NCBI RefSeq assembly: GCF_022637395.1
Contig: NZ_CP093339.1
Location: 186,001-250,000 of the forward strand
DNA length: 64,000 nt
Source: Shinella sp. H4-D48
GTDB taxonomy: Bacteria; Pseudomonadota; Alphaproteobacteria; Rhizobiales; Rhizobiaceae
Direction: 5' to 3'
In this document: positions 4,019-62,619 of the stretch, one piece after another
Numbering within the stretch: the stretch's first letter is position 1
Layout: every line of letters begins with the position of its first letter
Program-made: the position numbers and the translations under genes
Notes under the pieces: generated by a model
The model's input: the letters and a program-made list of their open reading frames with translations, nothing else
Told to the model about the DNA's origin: nothing
Databases searched by the model: none

Positions 4019-4037
4019 TGCAAAAATTGAACGCAAT

Positions 4038-4049: not shown

Positions 4050-4149
4050 TTGTTGACGTCGCATTAAATGTCTGCTTCCTTATGTGCATGGCAAGAGACC
4101 GGAACGGCCGGCCGACAATTCGCGTAGCGTCCATCACAGGGGAACTCAC

Positions 4150-5259: not shown

Positions 5260-5265
5260 CGGTTT

Positions 5266-5289
5266 CGGGCCGGCTTCAGAGCCGGCCCG
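5266..5289 (+). other. Stem-loop after binding-protein gene (10-bp perfect stem)
   Basis: CGGGCCGGCT, loop TCAG, AGCCGGCCCG, beginning six bases after the livJ-type stop. No T-run follows, so it is not an efficient intrinsic terminator. Its position suggests mRNA end protection or partial attenuation that keeps binding protein in excess. Confidence 0.7.
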
Positions 5290-5381
5290 CCCTCCGCCGT
5301 ACGGCCGGCGATCTAGCGCCGCCGCCGCGCACCGATTCCCGTTCGCCGCGATTGCTGCGAACTCTTCCGGGCAGGACATCC

Positions 5382-8077: not shown

Positions 8078-8819
<742 letters not shown>

Positions 8820-8827
<8 letters not shown>

Positions 8828-10109: not shown

Positions 10110-10119
10110 GCGCGCCTGT
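10096..10119. terminator. Stem-loop between convergent genes, probable bidirectional terminator
   Basis: ACAGGCGCG, loop CCTGAG, CGCGCCTGT: a perfect 9-bp stem that spans the oxidase stop codon and lies just before the end of the convergent gene at 10129. There is no clear T-run on either side, so termination would be imperfect or Rho-assisted. Confidence 0.5.
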
Positions 10120-10128
10120 GGGCAGAAC

Positions 10129-10665: not shown

Positions 10666-10696
10666 GACAAGGCCTTTCTTAGAGAGGGAACAGGGA

Positions 10697-11410: not shown

Positions 11411-11430
11411 TCGCTTCCTCCGGGAGGTAG

Positions 11431-11449
11431 ATGTTATTTGTTGTAACAT
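11431..11449. promoter_or_regulatory. Candidate operator B, copy 1 (ATGTTA-N7-TAACAT, contains TTATTTGTTGTAACA)
   Basis: The site lies 21 bases upstream of the SDR start. The 15-base core at 11434-11448 recurs, with changes, at 12372-12386, 16640-16654 and 16816-16830 (reverse strand). The outer bases form a perfect 6-bp inverted repeat with a 7-base spacer. The likely binder is the GntR protein encoded at 11585-12337. Confidence 0.55.
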
Positions 11450-11584
11450 TTAACGCGATGCATTTTTTCGCGTCAAGGATGAGATTGGACATCCGGGCTT
11501 TTCTCGAGAAAATTGGAATAGCGGGACAAGCGGCGCCTGGACAGTCGTCTGGCGGTTGCGCAGTACACCCGGCCTTTCAGTGGC

Positions 11585-12337
11585 TTAACGCGCGGCCTTC
11601 TGCCGCCGCTCCGTACTCAGCTGCGCCTTTATCATGTCGACCAGCGTATCGGCCGCAAAATTGATGTCGACGACGACAGCGCTGGCGAGGCGCTCGGGGT
11701 CCCGTGATTGAAGTGCGCGCACCATCATGTGATGATTGTTGATGCCCTGCTCGATCTGACCGAACCGGGGATAGATGACGTTGAGATACGAACTGTTCAT
11801 CATCCAGCGTTTCTCGATCATTCTCACCAGCTCATTCATCCCGCTGGCCCGATAGATCGCGAAGTGGAATTCCCAGTTTAACTCCATGACCTGGGCATAG
11901 TCCTTGCGCTCGTTTGCCTGGACCATCAGGTCGTTGATTTCGATGATATGTTCGATTTCCTCGTCGGTGATGCGCAAGGCGGCCTCGCGGGCGGCCAGCC
12001 CTTCGAGCGCCGCACGGATCTTCGTGAGCTCGATTATCCGTTCCGTCGTCAGAGTCGGAACATAGACCGAGCCGTTCGAGCGCATTTCCAGGATACCCTC
12101 GGCGGCGAGATTGTAGAGCGCTTCGCGGGCTGGCGTCAGGCTGACATCGAGCGCCGTGGCGACGGCGCGAATGGTGAGTTTCTGACCCGGCTTGAAGCGG
12201 CCGGCCATGATGGCGCTGCCGAGCTGGGTGCGGACCTGCTGGCCCAGCGTTTCGCTGCGACCGATCGGCGCCAGATCGATACCGGTGAAGGATGCGTCTG
12301 CGGTCTTGGTCTTGTTCATATTGTCGCCGGCACCCAA
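11585..12337 (-). CDS. GntR-family (FadR/FCD subfamily) regulator of region B
   Basis: The product has 250 residues if TTG 12337, which follows GGAGG by four bases, is the start, or 244 from ATG 12319, which has no clear SD; the choice is open. The N-terminal winged helix (residues ~30-95, with VATALDVSLTPAREALYNLAAEG) is followed by a helical FCD domain (FHFAIYRASG, then NNHHMMVRAL). It precedes the SDR and unknown gene on the same strand and lies downstream of the AapJQMP-type operon. Four copies of the B motif surround it, including one in front of its own start, so it probably autoregulates and controls the divergent amino acid transport and E1/E2 operons. Confidence 0.92.
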   Translation of the reverse strand: MGAGDNMNKTKTADASFTGIDLAPIGRSETLGQQVRTQLGSAIMAGRFKPGQKLTIRAVATALDVSLTPAREALYNLAAEGILEMRSNGSVYVPTLTTERIIELTKIRAALEGLAAREAALRITDEEIEHIIEINDLMVQANERKDYAQVMELNWEFHFAIYRASGMNELVRMIEKRWMMNSSYLNVIYPRFGQIEQGINNHHMMVRALQSRDPERLASAVVVDINFAADTLVDMIKAQLSTERRQKAAR

Positions 12338-12371
12338 GACGCCTCCAGCCGGATAACTGAGGCGTGTATTG

Positions 12372-12386
12372 TTATTTGATGCACCA
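12372..12386. promoter_or_regulatory. Candidate operator B, copy 2 (weaker)
   Basis: TTATTTGATGCACCA matches copy 1 at 12 of 15 bases and sits 35 bases upstream of the GntR start codon. It is the least conserved of the four copies; autoregulation is inferred. Confidence 0.4.
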
Positions 12387-12439
12387 CTTTACACGTGATT
12401 GCTGGTGGACGGAAAGGGGCGTTAGGCACCTCTCCCCTT

Positions 12440-13180
<741 letters not shown>

Positions 13181-13191
13181 GAGGGTTTCTT

Positions 13192-14304
13192 TCAATGCTG
13201 GCCGAAACGCATGCGCCGTTCGAGATAGGCGCCATAGCGGGAAAGGCTGAAGACGAACACGAAGTAGACGAGAGCCACGAAGATGTAGACCTCGAAATAG
13301 GCGAAGGACCATTCGCCGGTGCCATAGGCGGCATTGCCCGACGCGAGGATATCGAAAAAGCCGATGATGACGATCAGCGACGTTTCCTTGAAGGTGATGA
13401 CGAGTTGGTTGATCGTCGGCGGCAAAGCATTGCGGAAGGCCTGGGGCAAGATGATGCGGCCAGTTCGATGCCAGTAGCTCAGTCCGAGCGCCTTGGCAGC
13501 CTCTTCCTGGCCAACAGGGATGGATTGTATGCCGCTGCGGATGATCTCCGCCTGATAGGCGGCAAAGAACAGGGCAAAACCAATGATGACGCGCCAGATC
13601 TTGTCGCCTTGAAGCCAATCCGGCAGGACGAAGGGGAAGATGAGCGCGGCCGTAAACAGGATGGTGATAAGCGGCAGGGAGCGGACACCATCAATGAGTG
13701 CACCGGTCATTCTTGAAACGAGCGGCATTTCGGATCGACGAAGCAGCGCCAAGGCAACAGCCATGGGCATGCCGATGAGGACGCCGGCGGCATAGAAGAA
13801 CACCGTGAGCGTCAGCCCGCCCCAGTCGGCCGGCATAACGACCCGCATGCCAAACAGGCCGCCGCGCATCAGCACATAGAACGTGATGAAACCGGCGCAC
13901 CAGAGGGTAGAGAGCCGCAGCGGTTTCCAGAACCAAGGCAGGCATGACAGCACGATCGTCGCCACCATGGCAATGCACGCCAGCATGGAGCGCCACTGTT
14001 CGTCATAGGGAAACAGGCCGAAGATGATGATGCGCCAGCGCTGTTGGATAACGGCCCAGCAGGCGCCCGCGATGTCGCGGCAGACGGCTGACGTGCCGTC
14101 GGGCGAAGCCCACACTGCTTTCAGCACCGCCCAGTCGAGCGCGTGGTAGACGAGATATAGGAGGGCTGCCATGCCCACCAGGGAAATCATGGCGTTGCCG
14201 GGCGTTCGGAAATAACGACGGCGCAGGCGCGCCCCCAGCCCGTCAGGCTGGAAGCCGGTATTGAGGGGCTGCGGGTGTGTGTTCACGTCGGAAACGGTTG
14301 TCAT
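13192..14304 (-). CDS. Polar amino acid ABC transporter permease (AapM-like, HisM family)
   Basis: The product has 370 residues, longer than the ~220-residue HisM/GlnP proteins because of the extra N-terminal membrane segments found in the Aap/Bzt general amino acid systems. The BPD_transp_1 region ends with the EAA loop ([22 protein letters not shown]), cited here as [12 protein letters not shown] and RTGRIILPQ. The C-terminus is basic. It forms a heterodimer with the AapQ-like protein and uses the ATPase encoded 11 bases downstream. Confidence 0.92.
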
Positions 14305-14314
14305 GGCGCGCTCC

Positions 14315-15475
14315 TCAGGTTCTCAACTGCGTGCCCTTGAGGGCAATCGCCTTGTTGACGCGGTTGAGGACGAAGGAGAGCGTGTTGTTCATGATCAGGA
14401 AGCCGGCCATCAGTATGGCGATCAGTTCCAGCGTCTGGCCGCTCTGGTTGATGGAAACCGAAATGACCGAGAAAAAGTCAGCGAAACCGACGACAATGCC
14501 GAGCGTTGTTGCCTTGAAAAGCCAGACATACTGGTTGATCAGGGTCGGCAGCACGGCGCGGATGGCGAGCGGCAGGTGGACGCGGGAAAAGACATGCCAG
14601 GGAGCGAGACCAAGCGCGCGCGCAGCCTCCACCTGGCCCTTGCCGACAGACAGGAAACCGGCGCGAATGACCTCTGCAATATAGGCGCCGCCATAGATTG
14701 CGGTGGCGATCGCCAGGGCCGAAAGTTCTGGCGGAATGGTGATACCCCCGCGGAAATTCAGGCCTTTCAGCTCTGGTACGGAGAAAATGTCCGATCCGGG
14801 TTCGCGGGCATAAGCGAGAATGCCGACCATGACAGCAAGCGTTAGGCCTGCAATGCCGAGCTGCAGCACGCCACGGTTCTTCATACGCTTGAAGCGCCGC
14901 GACATGGAGAACCAGGCAAGCAGCGACAGGCCGAACAGCAGTGCCAGCGCGACGGCGGCAAACCACTGGCCGCCGACGTTAAGGCTCGGCACGAACACGC
15001 CGCGGGCGGACAGGAAGATGGAATCAAAGACGGAGTAAGCCTGTCTCGTCGGCGGCAGATGAGTGAGCGCCGCATACCAGAACAAGGCCTGGAGAATGAG
15101 CGGCACATTTCGAAACGTCTCAATATAGAGAGTGCCGATATCATTGAGTACGCCATTGGAGGAAATTCGGAAGACGGCGATGATCAGGCCTATAATATTG
15201 GCCAGGACGATGCTCAGGATACCGAGGAAGATCGTGTTGACGATGCCGACCCACAGCATCCGAAGGTAGCTTTCGAACGGATCGAACGGGATGAGCGAGA
15301 AGCCGATCCGAAAACCGGTCGACTTATGAAGGAAATCGAAACCGCTGGTCATGCCTTGGGCGGCAAGCTTCGTCGAGGCCTCATGCACCGCGCCGAAGAT
15401 GACGAGAGCGAGAATGAGGAGAAACGCCACCTGATAGGCGAGGCTGCGCGTTTTTCTGTTTCTGAACATCTGCAT
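14315..15475 (-). CDS. Polar amino acid ABC transporter permease (AapQ-like)
   Basis: The product has 386 residues, again the long Aap/Bzt form. Early membrane segments are followed by the periplasmic segment IGFSLIPFDPFESY and the conserved permease domain. The EAA loop is VEAARALGLAPWHVFSRVHL, and NQYVWLFKATTLGIVVGFAD is the usual post-EAA stretch. It lies between the binding-protein gene and the AapM-like gene, the standard aapJQMP order. Confidence 0.92.
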   Translation of the reverse strand: MQMFRNRKTRSLAYQVAFLLILALVIFGAVHEASTKLAAQGMTSGFDFLHKSTGFRIGFSLIPFDPFESYLRMLWVGIVNTIFLGILSIVLANIIGLIIAVFRISSNGVLNDIGTLYIETFRNVPLILQALFWYAALTHLPPTRQAYSVFDSIFLSARGVFVPSLNVGGQWFAAVALALLFGLSLLAWFSMSRRFKRMKNRGVLQLGIAGLTLAVMVGILAYAREPGSDIFSVPELKGLNFRGGITIPPELSALAIATAIYGGAYIAEVIRAGFLSVGKGQVEAARALGLAPWHVFSRVHLPLAIRAVLPTLINQYVWLFKATTLGIVVGFADFFSVISVSINQSGQTLELIAILMAGFLIMNNTLSFVLNRVNKAIALKGTQLRT

Positions 15476-15504
15476 CGGAACACCCCTCCGCTGTCATCGC
15501 GGCC

Positions 15505-15525
15505 GCCGACGCGTGACGCGCCGGC
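15505..15525 (-). other. Stem-loop after binding-protein gene (9-bp stem, 3-base loop)
   Basis: On the + strand this reads GCCGACGCG, TGA, CGCGCCGGC. One position is a wobble or mismatch depending on strand. It lies between the aapJ-like stop and the aapQ-like start, with no T-run in the direction of transcription, so stabilisation or attenuation is more likely than full termination. Confidence 0.55.
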
Positions 15526-15545
15526 GACCAGCCTTGGGAGAAGGA

Positions 15546-16586
15546 TCAGTCGAGAACGAGCGGATAGAGGATGCCGCCGTTCTTCATCAGGGCGTTTACA
15601 CCACGCTCGACCTTATAGGGCGAGTCCTTGCCGATGTTGCGGTCCCATATCTGGGAATAGTTGCCGACAGTCTTGATGACATTGTAACCCCAGTCATCAT
15701 TAAGCCCGAGCGGCGCTCCCATGCCGGGCGTTGCGCCCAGAAGTTTGCCGATGGCGGGCGTCGGCGGGTTGGCTTTCATCTCATCGACATTTTCGCTCGT
15801 CACGCCGGCCTGTTCGGCAAGCAGAAGAGCGGTCTGCACCCAGTTGGCGATATCAACCCAATTGTCGTCGCCCTGGCGCATGACGATACCGACGGGCTCG
15901 GCCGACAGAACGTCCGGCAGGATAACGAATTCGTCCGGGTTCTTGGCCTCAGTAGCGCGCAGGACGCCGAGTTGCAGATCCCACTCCATCATGGCGTCGC
16001 AACGACCGGCGAGGAAAGCGGCGTTGGCTTCTTCCGTCTTCTCGAATGGAACGACGTTCAGCTTGTAGCCGTTCTGGGCCTCGTGCTCTACGGCGTAGCG
16101 CTCCATGGTGGTGCCGGTCGGAAGGCAAAGCGTGCCACCGTCGAGATCCTTGGCAGATGTGATGTTCAGGTCCTTGCGCACCATGTAGTGAATCGCGGCC
16201 ATCATGTAGGGCTGCGCGAACTGTGCGCGGATTTCGGTATCGCGGCTGAACGTCCAGCCGGATGACTTGATGACAAGATCCAGTTCTCCCGACTGGAGCG
16301 AAGGCCAGCGCTGTGCCCAGCTGGTCGGCTTGATATCGACGTGACCTTCCCAGGTCCCGAAGATCGCCGTGGAAACGGCGCGGCACAGGTCAATGTCGAA
16401 GCCTTTCCAGTTACCTTTGTCGTCCACTTCGGCAAGACCCATGTAGGAGCCGTTATGACCGGTGCAGGCGAGGGCGCCTCGCTCCTTCACCTTTTTCAGG
16501 GTGTCGCCGAATTCCGCATGGGCCGGTGTGACCGAAAGCAGAACCGTACCCGCGAGTGCGGCGACAAGTGTCGACTTGATAGACAT
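15546..16586 (-). CDS. General amino acid ABC transporter periplasmic binding protein (AapJ-like)
   Basis: The product has 346 residues from ATG 16586; the in-frame ATG at 16625 would put 13 extra residues ahead of a good Sec signal peptide (MSIKS start, cleavage after AHA). The SBP_bac_3 domain has LKKVKERGALACTGHNG at the opening and WKGFDIDLCRAV, typical of AapJ/BztA proteins that bind L-amino acids, including acidic and polar ones. This is the first gene of the minus-strand transport operon. Operator-like B copies lie in the 262-base gap to the divergent E1 operon. Confidence 0.93.
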   Translation of the reverse strand: MSIKSTLVAALAGTVLLSVTPAHAEFGDTLKKVKERGALACTGHNGSYMGLAEVDDKGNWKGFDIDLCRAVSTAIFGTWEGHVDIKPTSWAQRWPSLQSGELDLVIKSSGWTFSRDTEIRAQFAQPYMMAAIHYMVRKDLNITSAKDLDGGTLCLPTGTTMERYAVEHEAQNGYKLNVVPFEKTEEANAAFLAGRCDAMMEWDLQLGVLRATEAKNPDEFVILPDVLSAEPVGIVMRQGDDNWVDIANWVQTALLLAEQAGVTSENVDEMKANPPTPAIGKLLGATPGMGAPLGLNDDWGYNVIKTVGNYSQIWDRNIGKDSPYKVERGVNALMKNGGILYPLVLD

Positions 16587-52234: not shown

Positions 52235-52666
52235 TCAGTCGATATCGCTCCTGGCGTCGAAGTCCTCCCTCGACCTCCGGAAGCGATCCGCGTTCTCGAC
52301 GATCCACGTCCACAACGGGATCATGCGCAGGAGCAGATCCATGCCCGTTTCGGAAAGCGCGTATTCGACCCTCGGAGGGTTCTCCCCGAAGTCGTTTCGG
52401 ATGACCAGGCCGTCACGCTCCAGCTGACGCAGCGTCCGTGTCAGCATGCGCTGTGTGACGCCGTGCATGCGTCTTCCGATCTCCGCGTGGCGCAGCCCAC
52501 CGTACACGCCAAGTGTGTGGATGATGCCGAGTGACCAGCGGTTTCCGGCATGCGCCAGCACTTCGCGGCGCACGCCGTCGTCATCGTCCCTCAAGCCATC
52601 GCAGACCGTCTGGGAATACCTGAGAACGTCTTCACTGCTCAAAGTCTGGTTCACAGTATCACGCAT
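52235..52666 (-). CDS. HxlR-family winged-helix regulator
   Basis: The product has 143 residues. The HxlR signature is clear: NRWSLGIIHTLGVYGGLRHA, then GVTQRMLTRTLRQLERDGL and ALSETGMDLL. Single Cys23 could act as a redox sensor, as in some members. It lies divergent from the NmrA-like reductase with 70 bases between starts, the usual arrangement in which HxlR represses the oxidoreductase gene. Confidence 0.93.
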   Translation of the reverse strand: MRDTVNQTLSSEDVLRYSQTVCDGLRDDDDGVRREVLAHAGNRWSLGIIHTLGVYGGLRHAEIGRRMHGVTQRMLTRTLRQLERDGLVIRNDFGENPPRVEYALSETGMDLLLRMIPLWTWIVENADRFRRSREDFDARSDID

Positions 52667-52736
52667 GTACCTTCTTTCATGTGCTTGGGCGCATCGCTAG
52701 ATCGGGGTCGAAACGCATTCTCAATGAGGCAAAACA

Positions 52737-53690
52737 ATGAGTGATACAGCTTACACCACCACGCCGCGGTCCATTCTTGTACTGGGCGCTGGAGAACTCG
52801 GGCAACCCGTCCTTCGCAATCTGGCACGCCGTGCACGCGAGGCAAAGGATACGACGATCAGCGTTCTCCTGCGCGCCAGCGCTGTCTCGTCGGATGACCC
52901 GGAAAAGCAGCGTGCCATCGCGGAGATCCGGGAGCTCGGCATCGAGGTCGTCGTGGGCGACCTGGTCAAGAGTTCGATCGACGAACTCGCCTTGCTGTTT
53001 GCACGATTTCACACCGTGATTGGTTGTGCCGGTTACGCCGCAGGCATAGATACGCCGATGAAGCTGGCGAAGGCCGCTTTGCAGGCCCGTATCCCGCGCT
53101 ACTTCCCTTGGCAGTTTGGCGTTGATTTCGAGGCGATCGGACGCGGCAGTCCGCAGGACATTTTCGATGCACAGTTGGACGTCCGCGAACTCTTGCGAGC
53201 CCAGACCCAGACCGAATGGGTCATCATCTCGACAGGGATGTTCATGAGCTATCTGTTCGAGCCGGAGTTCGGCGTCGTCGACCTGAAAAATTCCAAGGTC
53301 AATGCATTGGGAAGTCTCGATACGGCCGTGACGCTGACGACGCCCGATGACATCGGGAAGCTGACGGCGGAAGTCGTCTTCGCCGAACCGCGCATCCGGA
53401 ACGAAATCGTGTTCCTGGCTGGCGATACGGTGACCTACGGGGAGGTCGCTGACAAGCTGGAAGCCGGTCTTGGCCGGCCTTTCCGGCGTTCTGAGTGGAG
53501 CGTGCCCTTCCTGATGGAAGAACTGGCGAAAGATCCGCAGAACATGATGCGCAAGTATCGTGCAGCCTTTGCCATGGGCCGGGGCGTCGCGTGGGATAAG
53601 GCAGGCACCTTCAACGAGCGTCACGCCATCCCCGTCACGGACATCGATGCGTGGATCGGCGCAAACCTGGATGCCTCCGTTCGGGCGTAG
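52737..53690 (+). CDS. NmrA/isoflavone-reductase-like NAD(P)-binding protein
   Basis: The product has 317 residues. N-terminal dinucleotide motif ILVLGAGELGQPVLRNLA; IPRYFPWQFGVDFEAIGRG is the segment typical of NmrA/isoflavone reductase (atypical SDR) proteins. There is no YxxxK catalytic motif of classical SDRs. Such proteins reduce quinones, aromatics or act as redox sensors. Probably repressed by the divergent HxlR protein. Confidence 0.9.
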   Translation: MSDTAYTTTPRSILVLGAGELGQPVLRNLARRAREAKDTTISVLLRASAVSSDDPEKQRAIAEIRELGIEVVVGDLVKSSIDELALLFARFHTVIGCAGYAAGIDTPMKLAKAALQARIPRYFPWQFGVDFEAIGRGSPQDIFDAQLDVRELLRAQTQTEWVIISTGMFMSYLFEPEFGVVDLKNSKVNALGSLDTAVTLTTPDDIGKLTAEVVFAEPRIRNEIVFLAGDTVTYGEVADKLEAGLGRPFRRSEWSVPFLMEELAKDPQNMMRKYRAAFAMGRGVAWDKAGTFNERHAIPVTDIDAWIGANLDASVRA

Positions 53691-54323
53691 CCCGCATTCG
53701 GCTTGGGTTCGAAAGGGTGGGACGTACAACGAATGGATGCCTCGCCCGCCCGTTTTCCCGGCGGGCGGCAAGCCGCGCCGGGATTGGCCGGCGACGAGGT
53801 AGTCTGCCGTTGTCTGGACGGCAAGAGCCTCGCCTCGCCGCTGAAATTCCTGGCGATAGATCAATCCCATGCCATGCGGGCGACCCTGCCGAACGCGCGT
53901 CTGATCGCCCGAAGGCGTGACGTGCCCACCTCTCGTCGGTTCGGGAGTTTGTCGATAGTTGGACGACCGCTCCACGTGCCCGTGATTAATGCGGGCGTAA
54001 GGCTATCGTCAGATCGACCAGTCTTTCGCTTCAAAACCGGCCGCGGCCCCCTGGGGAGGCTTCTTCCATTGCATCGGGCTGGCTCACATTCGGGGTCTCG
54101 TTCAGAGGCAGGGGACGCCGCGTGTAGGAAGCCATGGGGCATTTCAAGCAGCGAGGCGGTTTTACGGCGTTCATCGTCTTTCCCGTCCTGCTTGACCTCT
54201 GCGTTGCGCCATTGACCGCGTGCAGAAGATTGAATTCCTCAAAACGCACTCAGTTTGGAACATGCATCTTTGATAATCTACAAAAAACATAGAAATTAAA
54301 AACAATTGGATTTGAGGTGATCG
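53691..54323. other. 633-base region without a convincing gene
   Basis: Open frames occur on both strands (+ 53703-54215; - strand from 53975), but both are Arg/Ser/Pro-rich, show no recognised family and lack good ribosome-binding sites. Up to ~54230 the base composition is like coding DNA, so this may be decayed gene sequence. The last ~90 bases (54235-54323) are strikingly AT-rich and hold the promoter region of the organosulfur operon; I could not identify a standard -35/-10 or -24/-12 pair there. Confidence 0.5.
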
Positions 54324-54914
54324 ATGAAAATTCTCGGCATAAGCGGCAGCGTCAAGCGGCCTTCGCGTACGGCGCATGTCGTTGAGCGCATCGTCGCCGC
54401 GATCGGGCGGGCGGCAAATGTATCGACGGATGTCATCGACCTTGCGGATGCGGCGCCTGTGCTGTTCAGGGCGTTGCGTGCCGATCAGCTCGACGATGCG
54501 GGGCGGGCGATCATTGACGCTGTCGAGAGCGCCGATGTGCTCGTCGTCGGCTCGCCGGTCTACCGTGCGTCCTATACCGGCGCGCTCAAGCATCTTTTTG
54601 ACCTTGTCGATTTCCGGGCCCTGCAGGGCAAGCGCGTCGTCCTTGCAGCGACCGGCGGCACGCCACTGCACGGCTTGATGCTGGAGCATCAGTTCCGGCC
54701 ACTGTTCGGCTTCTTCGGCGCCGTTACCGTGCCGACGACGGTCTACGCCGTCGAGGCCGATTTCACCGAATACACGCTTTCGAACCCGGCCGTCGAAGCG
54801 CGCATCGAGCGTGCCGTCGTCGATCTGTTCGATCTATTGCCCGCTACGGCCCTTGCCGCCGGCGATGCCCATCCGGCCCTTCGCGTTGTTTCGCGCGAGA
54901 CGGCCGCCAACTGA
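54324..54914 (+). CDS. msuE: NAD(P)H-dependent FMN reductase (MsuE-like)
   Basis: The product has 196 residues with a flavodoxin-like fold: MKILGISGSVKRPSRT at the N-terminus and VGSPVYRASYTGALKHLFDL near residue 75 are the MsuE/SsuE signatures. It reduces FMN with NADH or NADPH and hands FMNH2 to the monooxygenase encoded next. In pseudomonads MsuE serves alkanesulfonate and sulfone monooxygenases under sulfate limitation. First gene of the organosulfur operon, preceded by an AT-rich leader and GGTGATCG. Confidence 0.9.
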   Translation: MKILGISGSVKRPSRTAHVVERIVAAIGRAANVSTDVIDLADAAPVLFRALRADQLDDAGRAIIDAVESADVLVVGSPVYRASYTGALKHLFDLVDFRALQGKRVVLAATGGTPLHGLMLEHQFRPLFGFFGAVTVPTTVYAVEADFTEYTLSNPAVEARIERAVVDLFDLLPATALAAGDAHPALRVVSRETAAN

Positions 54915-54936
54915 CATCAGGAGAGAGGAGTACCCC

Positions 54937-56040
54937 ATGACTGAACAGAACAGGGATGCCGTGAAATTCGCCTATTGGGTGCCGAACGTTTCCGGTGGAC
55001 TCGTCATTTCCAATATCGAGCAGCGCACCAGCTGGACGATCGAATACAACCGCAAGCTCGCGCAGATCGCGGAAGCCAGCGGCTTCGACTATGCGCTGAG
55101 CCAGATCCGCTTCACGGCTGGCTATGGCGCGGAGTTCCAGCATGAATCCGTGTCGTTCAGCCATGCTCTTCTTGAATCCACCACGACGCTGAAGGTCATC
55201 GCCGCAATCCTGCCCGGTCCGTGGAACCCGGCGCTCGCCGCCAAGCAGATTGCCACGATCAACCATCTGACGAACGGCCGCGTTGCCGTCAACGTCGTCA
55301 GCGGCTGGTTCCGCGGCGAATTCCACGCCATCGGCGAGCCCTGGCTAGACCACGACGAGCGCTACCGCCGCTCGGAAGAGTTCATCCGCGCGTTGCGCGG
55401 CATCTGGACGGAAGACAACTTCACCTTCCGCGGTGATTTCTACCGCTTCAACAACTATTCCCTGAAGCCGAAACCGATCGATCCGCAACCGGAAATCTTC
55501 CAGGGCGGCTCGTCGCGTGCCGCGCGCGACATGGCCTCGCGTGTCTCCGACTGGTATTTCACCAATGGCAACACGCCGGAGGAAATTGCCAAACAGGTCA
55601 ATGACATCAGGGCGAAGGCCAAGGAGAACAATCACGCCGTCAAGGTTGGCGTCAATGCCTTCGCTATCGTGCGCGAGACCGAGGAAGAAGCCAAGGCAGT
55701 GCTCGCCGAGATCATCGAGAAGGCCAATCCCGAAGCGGTCAACGCCTTCGGTCACGAGGTGAAGAATGCCGGCAAGGCCTCGCCCGAAGGCGAAGGCAAC
55801 TGGGCGAAATCGAGCTTCGAAGACCTCGTCCAGTACAATGACGGCTTCCGCTCCAACCTGATCGGCACGCCGAAACAGGTGGCCGAGCGCATCGTGCACC
55901 TGAAGCGCGCCGGTGCCGATCTCATCCTGCTCGGCTTCCTGCACTTCCAGGAGGAGGTGGAATATTTCGGCAAGCACGTCATTCCGCTGGTGCGCGCGCT
56001 GGAAGAGGCCGAGGAGACCGCGGCTATCGCGGCCGAGTAA
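54937..56040 (+). CDS. sfnG: FMNH2-dependent dimethylsulfone monooxygenase-like protein (SfnG family)
   Basis: The product has 367 residues from ATG 54937 behind GAGAGAGGAG. It belongs to the bacterial luciferase-like TIM-barrel group; AYWVPNVSGGLVISNIEQRT and NVVSGWFRGEFHAIGEPW are characteristic of SfnG/SsuD. SfnG oxidises dimethylsulfone with FMNH2 and O2 to methanesulfinate and formaldehyde. The reductase gene directly upstream supplies FMNH2. The close SfnG match supports a short-chain sulfone over long-chain sulfonates, but related substrates are possible. Confidence 0.9.
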   Translation: MTEQNRDAVKFAYWVPNVSGGLVISNIEQRTSWTIEYNRKLAQIAEASGFDYALSQIRFTAGYGAEFQHESVSFSHALLESTTTLKVIAAILPGPWNPALAAKQIATINHLTNGRVAVNVVSGWFRGEFHAIGEPWLDHDERYRRSEEFIRALRGIWTEDNFTFRGDFYRFNNYSLKPKPIDPQPEIFQGGSSRAARDMASRVSDWYFTNGNTPEEIAKQVNDIRAKAKENNHAVKVGVNAFAIVRETEEEAKAVLAEIIEKANPEAVNAFGHEVKNAGKASPEGEGNWAKSSFEDLVQYNDGFRSNLIGTPKQVAERIVHLKRAGADLILLGFLHFQEEVEYFGKHVIPLVRALEEAEETAAIAAE

Positions 56041-56149
56041 GGCAAAACAAACAAGGGAGCGGCGGCTCGACCGTCGCTTCCTGAAACGCGGGCGCGATGG
56101 TGTCCGCGAACCCAAACCCGTGCCCGTAGGGCGATGGACGAAACGAACC

Positions 56150-57061
56150 ATGTCGGCATCGAATTATCTGCTCGCGGGCCTCAGCGGCGAGGTGGCAATC
56201 CCGCCCGACATTGCGGAGCATCTTTCGCTGCGCAATGCACCTGCTGCACAGCCCACACTACGGACTGATGCGTCTCTTGCGCTGGAGTTGCGCGGCATCG
56301 ATCTGTCGTTCGGCGGGGTGGTCGCGCTCAAGGAGGTCGACCTTGCGGTGCGTCATGGCGAGATCCGGGCGATCATCGGCCCGAACGGTGCCGGAAAGAG
56401 TTCGCTGATCAACGTCATCTCCGGCGTCTATCGGCCTGACCGCGGTCACGTTGCTATCAATGGCGCGCCCTACCAGCCGGTGCCGACGCACAAACTCGCC
56501 CGTCTCGGCGTTGCTCGCACCTTCCAGAACCTCGCGCTCTTCAAGGGGCTGAGCGTGCTCGATAATGTCGCGACAGGTCGGGCCTATGCCGGCCGCACGA
56601 ATTTCCTCAGCCAGATCATCGGACTGCCCAATGCGCGCCGCGAACAGGCAAATGCGCGCGAGCGGGCGCGCAGCGTCATCGATTTTCTGCATCTGACGCC
56701 CTACCTCGACCGCCTTGCCGGCACGCTGCCCTATGGATTGCAGAAGCGGGTGGAACTGGCGCGGGCACTGGCCGCCGAGCCGCGCATCCTGCTGCTCGAC
56801 GAGCCCATGGCGGGCATGACGGCGACGGAGAAGAACGAGCTTGCCGACTACGTGCGCCTCGCTCGAGAGGAATACGGCATCACGGTCGTGCTGATCGAGC
56901 ACGACATCGGCGTGGTCATGGGCCTGTCCGACCGGATCGCCGTGCTCGATTACGGGCGCAAGATCGCAGACGGCACACCGCAGGAGATCGCCAGCGACCA
57001 GCGCGTCATCGACGCCTATCTCGGCGTGCCGCCGGAAAACGAAGACGGGGAGGGCATCTGA
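56150..57061 (+). CDS. Liv-type ABC transporter ATP-binding protein (LivG family), organosulfur operon
   Basis: The product has 303 residues from ATG 56150; the frame upstream is shadow. The first ~45 residues are an unusual N-terminal extension before the ATPase fold begins at LELRGIDLSFGG. Walker A GPNGAGKSS, signature LPYGLQKRVELA (LivG-type), Walker B ILLLDEPMAGMT, switch His in IEHDIGVV. The gene order here is G-H-M-J-F, unlike region A. The permease gene starts in its stop codon. Confidence 0.92.
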   Translation: MSASNYLLAGLSGEVAIPPDIAEHLSLRNAPAAQPTLRTDASLALELRGIDLSFGGVVALKEVDLAVRHGEIRAIIGPNGAGKSSLINVISGVYRPDRGHVAINGAPYQPVPTHKLARLGVARTFQNLALFKGLSVLDNVATGRAYAGRTNFLSQIIGLPNARREQANARERARSVIDFLHLTPYLDRLAGTLPYGLQKRVELARALAAEPRILLLDEPMAGMTATEKNELADYVRLAREEYGITVVLIEHDIGVVMGLSDRIAVLDYGRKIADGTPQEIASDQRVIDAYLGVPPENEDGEGI

Positions 57062-57957
57062 TGGCCGAATTCGACTGGCTTTTCTTCACCGAGGTGCTGA
57101 TCGGCGGGCTGCTCTCCGGCGTGATGTACTCCCTGGTCGCAATCGGCTTCGTGCTGATCTACAAGACCTCGGGCGTCCTGAATTTTTCGCAAGGCGCGTT
57201 GCTCCTCTTCGCCGCGCTCACCTTCGTCAGCCTCGTCGAGAAGGGCGTGCCTTTCGCGGCCGCCTTCGCCATTACTTTCGCGGCGATGGTCGTTATCGGT
57301 ATCGCCATCGAGCGCACGGTGCTGCGACCACTTACCAACAAGCCGCCGATCACGCTGTTCATGGCGACGCTCGGCCTCTCCTACATCATCGAGGGTGCGG
57401 CGCAGCTCATCTGGGGCACGCAGGTGCATGGCCTCGATCTCGGCATCGAGGATATCCCTTTCGATGTCGGCGGTGTCTTCATCAGTCAATTCGATATCTT
57501 CGCCGCCGTGGTTGCGGCCGGCATGGTGGCGGCGCTTTCGGCCTTCTTCCGCTACACCCGCATCGGCCTCGGCTTTCGTGCAGTCGCGGACGATCAGTTC
57601 GCCGCCCTCGCCGTCGGCCTCAAGCTGCCGTGGATATGGGCAAGTGTATGGGCCGCTGCCGGTCTCGTCGCGCTGGTTGCCGGATTGCTGTGGGGCGCAC
57701 GTCTTGGCGTGCAGTTCTCGCTCTCGCTGGTGGTGCTGAAGGCGTTGCCGGTGCTGGTCCTTGGCGGCTTCGATTCCATTCTCGGCGCCATCGTCGGCGG
57801 CCTGATCGTCGGCGCATCCGAAAAGCTCGCCGAGGTCTATATCGGCGATTATTTCGGCGGCGGCATCGAGGGCTGGTTCGCTTATGTCGTGGCACTCGTC
57901 TTCCTGCTCGTGCGCCCCTCGGGCCTGTTCGGCCAGAAGCTCGTGGAAAGGGTCTGA
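57061..57957 (+). CDS. Liv-type ABC transporter permease (LivH family), organosulfur operon
   Basis: The product has 298 residues and about eight membrane segments. GFVLIYKTSGVLNFSQGALL is the LivH hallmark (IYKTSGVLNFSQG instead of the VYGVLRMINFAHG of the region A copy). IVGGLIVGASEKLAE is the coupling loop. Starts on the last base of livG (TGATG). Confidence 0.92.
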   Translation: MAEFDWLFFTEVLIGGLLSGVMYSLVAIGFVLIYKTSGVLNFSQGALLLFAALTFVSLVEKGVPFAAAFAITFAAMVVIGIAIERTVLRPLTNKPPITLFMATLGLSYIIEGAAQLIWGTQVHGLDLGIEDIPFDVGGVFISQFDIFAAVVAAGMVAALSAFFRYTRIGLGFRAVADDQFAALAVGLKLPWIWASVWAAAGLVALVAGLLWGARLGVQFSLSLVVLKALPVLVLGGFDSILGAIVGGLIVGASEKLAEVYIGDYFGGGIEGWFAYVVALVFLLVRPSGLFGQKLVERV

Positions 57958-57958
57958 C

Positions 57959-58999
57959 ATGTCTGTCGTCACAGCCGATCTTTCGCCGTCTTTCTCCGTC
58001 CCGCGCCATGCCGGCGCGATCGCAGTGCTCGCCGTCGCCTATCTCGTCGTGCCCTTCCTCGGCTCAAGCTATCTCTTCGAGGCGATCCTGCTGCCTTTCC
58101 TGGCGCTCAGCCTTGCCGGCGTCGGGCTCAATCTGCTGACGGGTTATGCAGGCCAGGTCTCGTTGGGCTCGGCCGCCTTCATGGCGGTGGGCGCTTTCGC
58201 GGCCTATAATTTCAATCTGCGGGTGGACGCGCTGCCGCTGGCCGTCTCCATAGTGCTGGCCGGGCTTTCGGCGGCGGCGATCGGCATCGTCTTCGGCCTG
58301 CCGAGCCTGCGGCTGCGCGGCTTCTACCTCGCCGTCTCGACGCTCGCTGCGCAGTTTTTCGTGCAATGGGCACTGACGAAATTCAGCTGGTTCTCCAACA
58401 ACTCCGCGTCCGGCGTCATCGACGCGCCGCCGCTGTCGCTTGCTGGCTTCTCGTTCGAGGGCCCTGTCGGACGCTATCTCTTCGCGCTGACGGTCGTGGC
58501 GGTCCTGACCTTCCTCGCTTTCCGCCTCGTCTCATCTCAGACCGGCCGCAACTTCATCGCCGTGCGCGACAACGAGACCGCCGCGCGCATCATCGGCGTG
58601 CCGGTCCTGCGCACCAAGCTGCTCGCCTTCGGGGTTTCATCCTTCATCATCGGCGTCGCCGGCGTGCTTTGGGCCTTTGCCTATCTGCGCACCGTGGAGC
58701 CGGCGGGCTTTAATCTCGATCGCTCGTTCCAGATCCTGTTCATCGTCATCATCGGCGGCCTCGCTTCGATCCGCGGCGCCTTTTTCGGCGCGGCGCTGAT
58801 CGTTGTCTTTCCGCTCGTGCTGTCGAGACTCGGTTCCTTCCTGCTGGGTGACGTCTTCGATTCCGGCGTGCTCGATATGACGCAACGTATCGTGATCGGC
58901 GCCTTCATCATCCTGTTTCTGGTGCTGGAGCCTGATGGCCTTGTCGCGCTCTGGGATCGCTTGAAATCACGCATAACGGCCGCCGTCCGGCGGGTGTGA
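57959..58999 (+). CDS. Liv-type ABC transporter permease (LivM family), organosulfur operon
   Basis: The product has 346 residues from ATG 57959, one base behind the livH stop. The LivM segments VGLNLLTGYAGQVSLGSAAF, LRLRGFYLAVSTLAAQFF and IGGLASIRGAFFG are present. It pairs with the LivH-type protein. Confidence 0.92.
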   Translation: MSVVTADLSPSFSVPRHAGAIAVLAVAYLVVPFLGSSYLFEAILLPFLALSLAGVGLNLLTGYAGQVSLGSAAFMAVGAFAAYNFNLRVDALPLAVSIVLAGLSAAAIGIVFGLPSLRLRGFYLAVSTLAAQFFVQWALTKFSWFSNNSASGVIDAPPLSLAGFSFEGPVGRYLFALTVVAVLTFLAFRLVSSQTGRNFIAVRDNETAARIIGVPVLRTKLLAFGVSSFIIGVAGVLWAFAYLRTVEPAGFNLDRSFQILFIVIIGGLASIRGAFFGAALIVVFPLVLSRLGSFLLGDVFDSGVLDMTQRIVIGAFIILFLVLEPDGLVALWDRLKSRITAAVRRV

Positions 59000-59092
59000 G
59001 ATCGAAGCCGCGGGCTTCCAACAATAAAAACCTTGAACCCTGACAGCAAACCGGACGGCCCAGCGCCGCCGACAGACGGAGTGTGTCCAGCC

Positions 59093-60427
59093 ATGACCCT
59101 TTACACAAAGATAAGAGCCGCTGCTTTCGCCGCCGGCATCGGCCTTGCAGCCATCGCCGCACCGGCGCTTGCCGACGAGCAGCATTTTCCCCTTCAGAGC
59201 TATCGTGTCGGCCCCTACGCGGCCGGCGGCACGGGCTTCTTCGGCGGCTTCATCGACTATCTCAACCTCATCAATACCAGGGACGGCGGCGTCAACGGCG
59301 TAAAGCTCACCTGGTCGGAGGCCGAGACCCAGTATGAGGTGGAGCGCGGCGTCGAGGCTTATGAGCGCCTGAAGAGCAACCAGGGCATCGCCGCCTGGAA
59401 TCCGCTGTCGGTCGGCATCGCCTATGCCATGATCGACCGCATCACGCAGGACAAGGTGCCGCTGATCACCATCAACCATGGCCGCACGGATTCGACCGAC
59501 GGCCGCGTCTTCCCCTATGTCTTCCCGCTGCTGCTCAATCCCTACAGCGAGACCTCGGGCATCGTAAACTACATCGCCTCCAAGGAGGGCGGTCTCGAAA
59601 GCCTGAAGGGCAAGAAGATCGTCGTGCTTTACCACGGCTCGCCCTATGGCAAGGAGACGATACCGATCTACGAACTGCTCGCCGAAAAGTACGGTTTCGA
59701 ACTGCAGCAGATCGAAGTGCCGCATCCGGGCAACGAGCAGCAGTCGCAGTGGCTGACAATCCGTCGCGCCAAGCCCGATTATGTCGTGCTACGCGGCTGG
59801 GGCGTGATGAACCCCGTTGCGCTGAAGACGGCAGCCAAGACCGGCTTCCCGGTCGATCACATCATCGGCAATGTCTGGTCGAACTCGGAAGAGGACGTCA
59901 TTCCGGCGGGTGATGCGGCCAAGGGCTATACGGCGATCACCACACAGGCGTCCGGTGCCGAATACCCCGTCGTCAAGGAGATCGTGAAGACGGTCTATGA
60001 TGCCGGCAAGGGCAATCTGGAGGACAAGAACCGTATCGGTTCGGTCTACCACAATCTCGGCATCGTCAACGGCATCCTGAATGTCGAGGCCGTGCGCATC
60101 GCCCAGGAAAAATTCGGCAAGCGCACGCTGACGGGCGATGAAGTGCGCTGGGGCTTTGAACATCTCCAGCTCGATCCCGCCCGTGTCGAGGCGCTCGGCG
60201 CCAAGGACCTTTTCCACTCGATCAATGTCACCTGGGACAACCACGAGGGCAACGGCTACGTGACCTTCCAGCAGTGGGACGGCAAGAAGTGGAACGTCGT
60301 TTCCGACTGGATCGCCCCGGACTGGGCGCTGCTGCGGCCGATCATTGAAAAATCCTCCGAAGCCTATGCCGCTGAAAAGGGCATCAAGCTTCGCACGGCC
60401 GAAGATGCGGGCGGCGTGACGAACTGA
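59093..60427 (+). CDS. Liv-type ABC transporter periplasmic binding protein, organosulfur operon
   Basis: The product has 444 residues from ATG 59093; ATG 59033 would precede a non-signal segment. A Sec signal peptide (MTLYTKIR start, cleavage after PALA) leads into a Peripla_BP_6 domain with VGPYAAGGTGFFGGFIDYL and NTRDGGVNG. It is about 70 residues longer than the region A binding protein and belongs to a different Liv subgroup. By context the ligand is an organosulfur compound, or an amide-like compound that contains sulfur; it is not proven. Confidence 0.9.
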   Translation: MTLYTKIRAAAFAAGIGLAAIAAPALADEQHFPLQSYRVGPYAAGGTGFFGGFIDYLNLINTRDGGVNGVKLTWSEAETQYEVERGVEAYERLKSNQGIAAWNPLSVGIAYAMIDRITQDKVPLITINHGRTDSTDGRVFPYVFPLLLNPYSETSGIVNYIASKEGGLESLKGKKIVVLYHGSPYGKETIPIYELLAEKYGFELQQIEVPHPGNEQQSQWLTIRRAKPDYVVLRGWGVMNPVALKTAAKTGFPVDHIIGNVWSNSEEDVIPAGDAAKGYTAITTQASGAEYPVVKEIVKTVYDAGKGNLEDKNRIGSVYHNLGIVNGILNVEAVRIAQEKFGKRTLTGDEVRWGFEHLQLDPARVEALGAKDLFHSINVTWDNHEGNGYVTFQQWDGKKWNVVSDWIAPDWALLRPIIEKSSEAYAAEKGIKLRTAEDAGGVTN

Positions 60428-60435
60428 TGTCGCAA

Positions 60436-60495
60436 GGCCGCGCACGGCACCGCGGCCCTGTCGCCGGGCATCGGAACAATATCTCCGATGCCTGG
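60436..60495 (+). other. Two tandem stem-loops after binding-protein gene
   Basis: Stem 1: GGCCGCG (60436-60442) with CGCGGCC (60451-60457). Stem 2: CCGGGCATCGGA (60464-60475) with TCCGATGCCTGG (60484-60495), 12 bp with one mismatch or wobble and an 8-base loop. Both lie between the binding-protein stop and the preferred LivF start at 60529, so they support that start. Confidence 0.65.
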
Positions 60496-60528
60496 CCGGA
60501 ATTTTCCGAAAACGCGAAGGGATTCGAC

Positions 60529-61308
60529 ATGCCCGAGGACAGCAGGCTGCTCACCGTCGAGGGCCTTCATGCCACCTACAACCATTCCATCACCGCGCTG
60601 CATGGCGTGACGCTCTCGCTTGCCCGCGGCGAAATCCTGGCCCTTCTCGGCGCGAATGGCGCCGGCAAGACCACGACGCTGAAGGCGGTGTCGAACCTGC
60701 TGCCGGCCGAACGGGGCCAGATCCTGGCCGGCAGCATCCGGTTCGAGGGGCGCGACGTGACGCGTGAGGCGCCCGCAAGCCTTGTCCGCAGCGGTCTCGT
60801 GCAGGTTCTGGAAGGGCGGCATTGCTTCAAGTCGCTGACGGTGGAGGAAAACCTCGTTTCCGGCGGTCTTGGCCGCAGCGGATCGCGTGCCGAAATCGCC
60901 ACCGACCTCGAAAAGGTCTACGCCCATTTTCCGCGGCTCAAGGAGAAGCGCCGGGTTCTTTCTGGCCTGACCTCCGGCGGTGAGCAGCAGATGACGGCGA
61001 TCGGCCGGGCACTGATGTCGCGTCCGCGGCTGCTGGTGCTCGACGAGCCTTCGATGGGGCTCGCGCCCCTCGTCGTACAGGATATCTTCCGCACCCTGAA
61101 ACGCCTCAACCGCGAGGAAGGCCTTTCAATCCTCGTTGCCGAGCAGAACTCGGCGGTCGCGCTCACCTATGCCGACCGGGCGGTCATTCTTGAAAACGGC
61201 GTCAGCGTTCTCTCGGGCAGCGCCGCCGAGCTCAAGGCGCGCGACGACGTTAAGGCCTTCTATCTCGGCCGGAAGCCCGTCGCGGCCACCCCTGTCTTTG
61301 CCCACTGA
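60529..61308 (+). CDS. Liv-type ABC transporter ATP-binding protein (LivF family), organosulfur operon
   Basis: The product has 259 residues from ATG 60529, with AAGGGA eight bases upstream. The in-frame ATG at 60427 overlaps the binding-protein stop but would add 34 low-complexity residues encoded by the stem-loops. Walker A GANGAGKTT, signature TSGGEQQMTA, Walker B LLVLDEPSMGLAP, switch Gln region VAEQNSAVAL. Second ATPase of the transporter. Confidence 0.92.
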   Translation: MPEDSRLLTVEGLHATYNHSITALHGVTLSLARGEILALLGANGAGKTTTLKAVSNLLPAERGQILAGSIRFEGRDVTREAPASLVRSGLVQVLEGRHCFKSLTVEENLVSGGLGRSGSRAEIATDLEKVYAHFPRLKEKRRVLSGLTSGGEQQMTAIGRALMSRPRLLVLDEPSMGLAPLVVQDIFRTLKRLNREEGLSILVAEQNSAVALTYADRAVILENGVSVLSGSAAELKARDDVKAFYLGRKPVAATPVFAH

Positions 61309-61333
61309 ATCCAATCTGAAGAGGAGACTTGCG

Positions 61334-62581
61334 ATGACCATTTCCAACGTAAACACAAAGGGTGCCGCCGAGGGTGTTCCAGCCGTGCCCCGCCCAGGCG
61401 AACCCGCGCATATCATCAAGAGCGACGCCGAGGCGATCTCGGTCGCGAAGGCGATCGCGGCCGAGATCGCGCCGGGAGCGGCAATCCGCGATCGGGACCG
61501 CATCTGGCCGGTAAAGGAACTCGACGCCTTCTCGCAGAGCGGGCTCTGGTCGATCAACGTGCCGAAAAAGTTCGGCGGACCTGAAGTGTCCTATGCAACA
61601 CTCGCCAAGGTGATCGAGATCGTCTCGGCAGCGGATTCCTCCATCGGCCAGATCGCACAGAACCATCTCGGCGTCGTCGCCGCCATTCGTACAGTGTCCG
61701 ACGAGGCGCAGCAGAAGCTGCTCTTTGCCGAGGCGCTGCGCGGCACGCGCTTCGGTAACGCTTTTTCGGAATTCGGCTCCAAGCGGGCCGCGGATTTCGA
61801 GACCAAGTTCACCGATGCGGGCGATCACGTCGTGGTCAACGGCCAGAAATTCTACTCCTCCGGCGCGTTGCTCGCTCATCTGGTGCCGATCGTGGCGCTC
61901 GATGACGAGGGCCGCGCCTGGTATGCGATTGCCGAGCGCGATGCACCGGGCCTCACCGTCATCGATGACTGGTCGGCCTTCGGCCAGCGTACCACGCTGT
62001 CAGGGACCGTCATCCTCAACAATGTGAAGGTGCCGAAGACCCATCTGGTGCCCGGCTACAAGGGCTATGAGGTGCCGACGGCCGATGGCGCGATCTTCCA
62101 GATCATCCAGGTGGCGGTCGATACCGGCATCGCGCAGGCGGCGATCGATGAGACCGTCTCCTTCGTCCGTACCAAGAGCCGTGCCTGGATCGACAGCGGC
62201 GTGGAACGTGCCTCGGACGATCCCTACACGATCCAGGCCGTCGGCGATCTGACACTGCGGCTCCATGCGGCGCAGGCGCTGCTCGAAAAGGCCGGAAAAG
62301 CCATCGACCGGGCCATCGAGACCCCAAATGCCGAGACGGTCGCCGACGCGCAGATCGTCACTGCGGAGGCAAAGATCCTGTCGACGGAAATCGCGATTGC
62401 TGCGACCAATAAGCTGTTTGAACTCGCGGGCACCCGCTCCACGCTTGCCGAGCATCACCTCGACCGCCATTGGCGCAACGCCCGTACCCATACCTTGCAT
62501 GACCCCGTGCGCTGGAAATACGCCATCCTCGGCAATTATTTCCTGAACGGCGAGAAGCCCCCGCTCCACGCCTGGAGCTGA
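61334..62581 (+). CDS. sfnB: Acyl-CoA dehydrogenase-fold flavin oxidoreductase (SfnB family)
   Basis: The product has 415 residues from ATG 61334, ten bases after GAGGAGA. It has the acyl-CoA dehydrogenase fold but resembles the sulfur-acquisition group (SfnB, DszC): AHIIKSDAEAISVAKAIA near residue 25, GLWSINVPKKFGGPEVSYAT, AADSSIGQIAQNHLG, and the C-terminal DRHWRNARTHTLHDPVRWK typical of FMNH2 monooxygenases in this fold. It probably oxidises an organosulfur compound with reduced flavin from the MsuE-like reductase. Last gene of the operon. Confidence 0.9.
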   Translation: MTISNVNTKGAAEGVPAVPRPGEPAHIIKSDAEAISVAKAIAAEIAPGAAIRDRDRIWPVKELDAFSQSGLWSINVPKKFGGPEVSYATLAKVIEIVSAADSSIGQIAQNHLGVVAAIRTVSDEAQQKLLFAEALRGTRFGNAFSEFGSKRAADFETKFTDAGDHVVVNGQKFYSSGALLAHLVPIVALDDEGRAWYAIAERDAPGLTVIDDWSAFGQRTTLSGTVILNNVKVPKTHLVPGYKGYEVPTADGAIFQIIQVAVDTGIAQAAIDETVSFVRTKSRAWIDSGVERASDDPYTIQAVGDLTLRLHAAQALLEKAGKAIDRAIETPNAETVADAQIVTAEAKILSTEIAIAATNKLFELAGTRSTLAEHHLDRHWRNARTHTLHDPVRWKYAILGNYFLNGEKPPLHAWS

Positions 62582-62596
62582 GTTATCTAAAAAAAC

Positions 62597-62619
62597 CGGG
62601 GCGCCAGAGAGGCGCCCCG
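62597..62619. terminator. Intrinsic terminator, best for minus-strand transcription
   Basis: CGGGGCGCC, loop AGAGA, GGCGCCCCG: a 9-bp stem. On the minus strand it is followed by a run of Ts (seven As at 62589-62595 on the + strand), giving a classical terminator for the IclR transcript. On the + strand it lies 16 bases behind the sfnB-like stop and can also end that operon. Confidence 0.7.

Follow-up and report, generated by a model that had tools for sequence, protein, structure and literature searches.

A Liv-type transporter within a sulfone-oxidation operon of Shinella sp. H4-D48, a probable importer of oxidised organosulfur compounds

What does a transporter of the branched-chain amino acid (Liv) type carry when its genes lie inside an operon for sulfone oxidation? 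The question is raised by a 64,000-nucleotide stretch of Shinella sp. H4-D48 (contig NZ_CP093339.1, C3:186001-250000, in a genome of 4.77 Mb in three contigs), hereafter the window. A preliminary description of this DNA had placed MsuE-, SfnG- and SfnB-like enzymes around a full set of Liv genes and had proposed that the transporter belongs with the organosulfur genes. Our analysis bears out both points, and suggests that the system is probably a Liv-type (HAAT) importer with a specialised role, the uptake of an oxidised organosulfur compound other than an alpha-amino acid, within a sulfur-starvation operon. The tie between the Liv cassette and organosulfur metabolism follows from conserved gene order, co-occurrence, phylogeny, the loss of head-group residues in the binding protein and a shared upstream site.

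The eight genes form one tight operon on the + strand (54324-62581), in the order msuE-sfnG-livG-livH-livM-binding protein-livF-sfnB. The operon begins with msuE (54324..54914), encoding a flavin mononucleotide (FMN) reductase (TIGR03566, 240.7 bits against an equivalog cut-off of 212.5; PF03358), and sfnG (54937..56040), whose product exceeds the equivalog cut-off for dimethylsulfone monooxygenase (TIGR04021, 611.4 bits against 382.95) and matches the solved structure 8t0u, 'FMNH(2)-dependent dimethylsulfone monooxygenase', with an E-value of 4.2e-195. At the distal end, sfnB (61334..62581) encodes a DszC/MsuC-like flavin monooxygenase of the acyl-CoA-dehydrogenase fold (TIGR04022, 605.9 bits against an equivalog cut-off of 430.9), matching the structure of DszC (3x0x, E 7e-52) and, somewhat more weakly, that of the methanesulfinate monooxygenase MsuC (6u76, E 1.1e-45). 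Enclosed by these enzymes are genes for a livG-type ATPase (56150..57061; PF00005 and PF12399), a livH-type permease (57061..57957; PF02653, 91.1 bits, and a LivH tree), a livM-type permease (57959..58999; PF02653, 125.1 bits), the periplasmic binding protein (59093..60427; PF13458, 149.9 bits) and a livF-type ATPase (60529..61308; PF00005, 93.1 bits). The livG and livH genes overlap by one base, a single base separates livH from livM, and 109 bases lie between sfnG and livG; the livG product has an N-terminus about 40 residues longer than the LivG model, its equivalog match beginning at residue 45.

Two ATPases, two PF02653 permeases and a PF13458-type binding protein place the transporter, by Pfam, in the Liv/HAAT superfamily, with the same subunit set and Pfam families as LivJ/K-HMGF of E. 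coli, which handles branched-chain amino acids, and in the same superfamily as the urea importer UrtABCDE. It falls, however, below the curated equivalog or subfamily cut-offs of the former (LivG 255/362, LivF 217/441, LivH 73.8/379 and LivM 94.4/366 bits) and below the equivalog cut-offs of the latter (UrtD 194.1/304.1, UrtE 192.8/285.8, UrtB 75/250.3 and UrtC 67.7/296.2 bits), and the binding protein has no match in NCBIfam.

Conservation of this arrangement was assessed in the best 80 of 564 relatives obtained from a genome_contigs scan. Among these, the named strains whose binding proteins come closest to that of the window are Shinella (98-99% identity), and the order sfnG-livG-livH-livM-binding protein-livF is kept on one strand in 76/80; the four exceptions are two contig ends (L052, L064) and two A. 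vitis loci whose cassette lacks SfnG (L046, L049). A gene labelled sfnB lies nearby in 77/80 and one labelled msuE in 69/80, the latter count including, in many Mesorhizobium, a more distant downstream msuE-like gene. A megablast of PLSDB matched 123 plasmid records, 36 of which cover 80% or more of the query at a single place. A. fabrum C58 has the same eight genes, under public names, on its plasmid At, so the layout is already visible in public annotation.

Co-occurrence points in the same direction. In an evenly drawn sample of 151 Rhizobiaceae genomes, 11 have the binding protein at an identity of at least 86% and 12 have SfnG over its cut-off, with SfnG located 3.1-3.4 kb from the binding protein in all 11 genomes that bear the latter (Fisher p 7e-16, ignoring kinship). 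The twelfth SfnG genome (G576, locus L197) has the order msuE-sfnG-livGHM-livF-sfnB, the binding protein being matched for residues 1-94 only (14528-14809), between livM and livF. Outside Alphaproteobacteria, we compared by eye the genome lists for both proteins in a genus of 119 genomes (g114, whose probable name, Pseudomonas, is a guess). SfnG occurs there in 54/119 genomes and a binding protein of the family (E <= 1e-100) in 26/119; all 26 have SfnG, versus 28/93 of those lacking the binding protein (Fisher p 1.6e-11, again ignoring kinship). At the DNA level, sfnG of L177 shows 82.7% identity with a plasmid record of P. aeruginosa; neither L177 nor L131 is covered to 80% by any plasmid record.

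In a tree of 66 binding proteins rooted on LivJ/LivK, from which those of L140 and L175 were excluded owing to in-frame stops, the organosulfur-linked cassettes group as one branch of 38 rows (support 93/98). SfnG lies near 20 of them and an NtaA/DmoA-family or DszC-like enzyme near 12, three have only a truncated AMP-binding open reading frame (ORF) and three no marker. The branch splits into an SfnG half of 22 rows and an NtaA/DmoA-linked half of 16 rows (100/99 each), and all 22 acyl-CoA-synthetase-linked rows fall outside it, together with four rows without marker. Several of these outside rows and the outgroup are long-branched, which leaves the root unsure; a quick LivH tree gives the same cassette split, with 32 rows on one side and a support of 98. 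The window protein matches, over residues 7-438 (E 2.7e-149), PDB entry 4ru0, which its depositors labelled a putative binding protein for branched-chain amino acids. The entry itself belongs to the sister, NtaA/DmoA-linked half, scoring 927.9 bits against the binding protein of L131 and 501.4 bits against that of the window.

The window genome holds both halves, as shown by a second Liv cluster on contig C2 (L126, G000:C2:240001-260000, at 3556-16541) with two tandem binding proteins of the other half. This cluster also encodes NtaA/DmoA-family and DszC-like monooxygenases and a family-3 (SBP_bac_3) binding protein, and has palindromes upstream. Its luciferase-like enzyme belongs to the NtaA/DmoA family (523.9 bits against a cut-off of 279.7); its nearest match is the dimethyl-sulfide monooxygenase 6ak1 (513.6 bits), followed by an alkane monooxygenase (476.9 bits).

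As for the pocket of the binding protein, Ser79, Thr102, Tyr202 and Glu226 are contact residues of LivJ, and Ser79, Thr102 and Glu226 serve in head-group binding; all four are present at those numbers in the E. coli LivJ sequence. The aligned residues in the window protein are V107, R131 (T132 under another gap placement), W236 and V261, so that the amino-acid head-group arrangement of LivJ (Ser79, Thr102, Glu226) is not found in it. With V107, R131/T132 and V261 in the head-group positions, the amino-acid head-group site is, by alignment, lost. The comparison was extended to 22 rows of the SfnG half, 16 of the other half and 20/22 synthetase-linked rows (L160 and L162 were left out). Val occupies position 107 in 22/22 of the SfnG half; the NtaA/DmoA half has Ala (8), Thr (6) or Ser (2) there, and the synthetase-linked rows have Thr in 20/20. 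Position 261 is Val or Ile in 38/38 of the sulfur branch and Trp in 20/20 synthetase-linked rows. Position 234, two residues before the pocket aromatic, is Arg in 38/38 and in 0/20 (Trp in 17, Gln in 3); 4ru0 shares this arginine, which in the aligned rows marks the sulfur branch and may contact the ligand. R131, in turn, is not special to the branch, being present in 11/20 synthetase-linked rows. Asn103, Asn128 and His129 are each found in 22/22 of the SfnG half, whose pocket combines a neutral-looking change (Val107, Asn103, Asn128, His129) with a possible charge match (Arg234).

Further evidence comes from a palindromic candidate operator of 26 bases (54273..54298, + strand; consensus ATAATCTATAAAATCTATAGAnTATA, taken from alignment A2), located 25 bp before msuE. 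It was found by expectation-maximisation (EM) in 80 upstream regions dereplicated to 59, the window region included, with a log-likelihood of 650 versus 83-96 on eight base-shuffled sets, which were given fewer restarts and iterations; three of the 59 regions (L040, L047, L048) have no site above 15 bits. On both strands of the window this site is the sole match above 13 bits, a score that nothing exceeded in 20 resamples of 122 kb from a first-order Markov model. Outside the training set, the same genome carries the palindrome at an alkanesulfonate cluster (L127, G000:C2:155001-175000), where it lies 43 bp ahead of the gene for the Ssu-type binding protein next to SsuD (32.4 bits) and, at a distance of 76 bp each, upstream of an NtaA/DmoA-family gene and a PF13454 gene. 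At the second Liv cluster it stands 65 bp before the NtaA/DmoA-family gene, and further copies precede a DszC-like gene (by 86 bp) and a family-3 binding protein gene (by 34 bp). In other Rhizobiaceae it is found before NtaA/DmoA-like genes (L138, L203, L205, L206), before an sfnB-containing frame (L206) and before an SsuA gene over cut-off (L205). A degenerate pattern allowing up to three mismatches matches four places in the 4.77 Mb, against none for the reversed pattern. Besides the site of the window, these are two places within the SsuD cluster and a further one some 340 bp upstream of a TctC-type gene. A sequence-only model of the palindrome gives six places genome-wide at E <= 10, four of them at organosulfur clusters, the window site included. 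The SsuD cluster comprises SsuD itself (L127:14320-15489; 570.4 bits, over the cut-off of 518.2), an Ssu-type ABC transporter, the NtaA/DmoA-family enzyme, a second SfnB over cut-off, a 2-oxoglutarate-Fe(II) oxygenase, a Cys/Met pyridoxal-phosphate enzyme and the PF13454 protein, with three palindrome places. That the operon has a site in common with the alkanesulfonate cluster and with the second cluster of Liv and organosulfur genes suggests a sulfur regulon with no SfnR at the locus, and we infer that the operon is under sulfur-starvation control.

The preliminary description had already remarked on the lack of an SfnR-type activator beside the operon. This observation stands: PF00158, the mark of sigma54 activators, has eight matches in the genome, whose SfnR identity was not examined, and the nearest on the same contig is about 177 kb away. 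A candidate regulator was found elsewhere. In another genus, an Rrf2-family gene (L205:3152-3628; PF02082, 123 bits) lies about 1.4 kb from an NtaA/DmoA-linked Liv cluster, and the window genome has a 93% relative of it (L221:8897-9364, C2:868891-869343, where L221 is G000:C2:860001-880000), divergent from the gene cluster of a taurine transporter; the binding protein of the latter scores 450.3 bits on TIGR01729 (cut-off 304.25). The Rrf2-family protein of the window genome exceeds the Rrf2 superfamily cut-off (105.6 bits against 73.3) and stays below that of the CymR equivalog (82.3 against 195), which is still the best among the Rrf2-type equivalogs listed. Weaker copies of the palindrome surround its gene: one of 17.1 bits precedes the gene for the taurine binding protein, and others score 15.7 and 14.3 bits. 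The protein is perhaps the regulator of the palindrome.

Together, these observations allow us to propose a model. Upon sulfate limitation, the operon would be switched on via the regulator of the palindrome at 54273-54298. The binding protein would then capture an oxidised organosulfur compound in the periplasm, and LivH and LivM would pass it inward at the expense of ATP spent by LivG and LivF. Inside the cell, the compound would meet the flavin monooxygenases SfnG and SfnB, supplied with FMNH2 by MsuE: SfnG would cleave the C-S bond of a sulfone to yield a sulfinate, and SfnB would probably oxygenate sulfur, either from sulfide or sulfoxide to sulfone or from sulfinate to sulfonate. The alkanesulfonate monooxygenase SsuD, encoded on C2, could complete the release to sulfite. 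As to the ligand, small sulfones and sulfoxides, dimethylsulfone (DMSO2) included, are the likeliest class, although we give them somewhat less than an even chance. The earlier argument that DMSO2 is an unlikely substrate, being able to diffuse, is not supported as it stands: urea is also small and neutral, and has a Liv-type importer.

Two other organosulfur ligands have to be weighed against such a compound. The importer might carry a charged anion, such as methanesulfinate, methanesulfonate or a larger sulfonate, held by Arg234, with SfnG and SfnB serving wider sources. The fixation of that arginine in the sulfur branch, its absence from 20 synthetase-linked relatives and the nearness of SfnB to MsuC and DszC would fit this proposal, which we consider rather unlikely: MsuD/SsuD is absent from the eight-gene operon by inspection of ORFs and NCBIfam profiles, apart from the operon the genome encodes SsuD and an Ssu-type transporter (L127) as well as a transporter for taurine (L221), the SfnG half has lost the hydroxyl at the Ser79 position of LivJ, and another arginine, R131, is shared outside the branch. 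A bulkier organosulfur molecule (an aryl or long-chain sulfide, sulfone or sulfonamide, or an organosulfur carboxylate) seems slightly less probable again. It is favoured by the 22 synthetase-linked rows outside the sulfur branch, whose loci hold an AMP-binding enzyme, often together with a second, PaaK-sized one, and which probably carry aryl or fatty carboxylates. The matches of the NtaA/DmoA-family enzyme of the other half to dimethyl-sulfide monooxygenase and to an alkane monooxygenase speak for it as well. So does a shortened AMP-binding ORF, open in frame and of 286-465 codons, that members outside Alphaproteobacteria retain before livG in 20 loci (L129, L130, L131, L147, L148, L175-L183, L185, L186, L189-L192), perhaps a relic of an older cassette or a pseudoenzyme with another role. 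Against a bulky ligand, SfnG is named for a small molecule, DMSO2, and the shortened ORF is absent from the window; elsewhere it lacks the AMP-binding motif, by a pattern that we take to define it, in 20/20 cases, an absence weaker than it appears, as only 13/20 full-length controls have the motif.

Far less probable than either is that the operon simply houses a common transporter for amino acids, amides or urea. The fold and subunits of the transporter are those of the Liv/HAAT group, and the highest scores of its two ATPases are with the LivG/LivF and Urt models. It reaches none of the equivalog cut-offs for amino acid or urea importers, however, the LivJ head-group residues are gone, and both the co-occurrence with SfnG and the site common to sulfur clusters argue for a sulfur function. 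A ligand without sulfur receives only what is left after the three organosulfur classes. A reading that goes beyond the operon, under which the whole Liv branch, in its SfnG-linked and NtaA/DmoA-linked halves from Alphaproteobacteria and other Pseudomonadota, would consist of sulfone/sulfoxide importers, including the first for the DMSO2 class, derived from acyl-CoA-synthetase-linked carboxylate importers by gaining Arg234 and governed in Rhizobiaceae by an Rrf2-type sulfur regulator at a new palindromic operator, is less likely than not.

Several observations weigh against the organosulfur importer that we favour. In genus g114, 28/54 SfnG genomes have no binding protein of the family (E <= 1e-100), which means that SfnG does not need this transporter and counts against DMSO2 as its sole role; in the same genus, a binding protein of the SfnG half (67-71% identity) occurs in nine genomes, with SfnG adjacent in four and unlinked in five. 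The cassette is also kept without an adjacent SfnG at the two A. vitis loci (L046, L049) and in G028 (L150). In the Rhizobiaceae sample, 36 genomes have a binding protein of the wider family (E <= 1e-100), and the 25 that hold only relatives of 38-52% identity have SfnG in 0/25. The 93/98 support of the whole sulfur branch falls under the 95/80 star of the program. Arg234 may not face the ligand; the AlphaFold2 model of the binding protein has a predicted local distance difference test score of 47, too low for use, probably because its alignment comprised only 23 close relatives. The genome-wide E-values of the palindrome are weak (0.03-2.6), and the best of the six places is the window's own copy, which was among the training sequences. 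Moreover, the palindrome also matches before genes without a known sulfur link (L212), and it has no match by the solitary sfnB of L128, in any of the nine loci scanned outside Alphaproteobacteria or in L150.

Compared with known systems, the operon is closest in its enzymes to the Pseudomonas sfn/msu pathway (SfnG, MsuC, MsuD, MsuE/SfnF, SfnR), since its SfnG, SfnB and MsuE all reach curated cut-offs, but it differs in being a single operon of eight genes with a palindrome upstream, without adjoining MsuD or SfnR and without the truncated AMP-binding ORF. The parts of the published accounts that deal with these enzymes describe the conversion of DMSO2 to methanesulfinate by SfnG, the chemistry of MsuC and the sharing of MsuE (PMC8234197, PMC13352529). 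As the relevant section of one of them states, the sfn region of P. putida has predicted ABC transporters, while DMSO2 transporters are uncharacterised (PMC8234197). SfnG is also listed among changed proteins in one table row of a further study (PMC10454058). SsuACB and TauABC take up organosulfur compounds and belong to transporter families different from the Liv type; in this genome the candidate operator precedes the Ssu-type binding protein gene and, in a weaker form, the taurine one. In the open-licence literature, judged by titles and the beginnings of abstracts, we recognised no paper on a Liv-type transporter in a sulfone operon or on its branch. The enzymes are known, and the layout can be seen in public annotation, with a hint of it in print for P. 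putida; the new part would be the organosulfur branch of Liv-type importers. The locus offers a concrete, conserved candidate, comprising a binding protein, a residue of diagnostic value and a putative operator. If our reading is correct, a family filed as branched-chain amino acid importers holds a sulfur-scavenging branch, many of these genes in bacteria of soil and roots carry public names that should be corrected, and a sulfur regulon of Rhizobiaceae could be traced by means of the palindrome.

Some minor features complete the description. A GC-rich hairpin with a nine-pair stem (62597..62619, no strand assigned), 15 bases past sfnB and with a T run on the - strand, is a possible operon end; it is weak, as the scan found 11 sites overall against 7.7 expected (standard deviation 2.8). 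The region upstream of the operon, at 52235-53690, has a gene for an HxlR-family regulator (PF01638) and, in divergent orientation, one whose product looks NAD-binding by eye; neither gene has a match above the filter in the 80 compared loci. At the A. vitis locus L046, two NtaA/DmoA-like and two sfnB-like genes are found from about 3 kb past livF. The TctC-type binding protein gene (PF03401) preceded by the pattern match at G000:C2:530347-530372 (L212) may encode part of a further sulfur-linked transporter, or the match may be due to chance. Finally, an FAD-NAD(P)-binding protein recurs near the clusters, at L129:655-2082 and L127:140-1513 (both by PF13454), at L004 16716-18224 (by record name only) and at L197 17804-19276 (by a 32% match).

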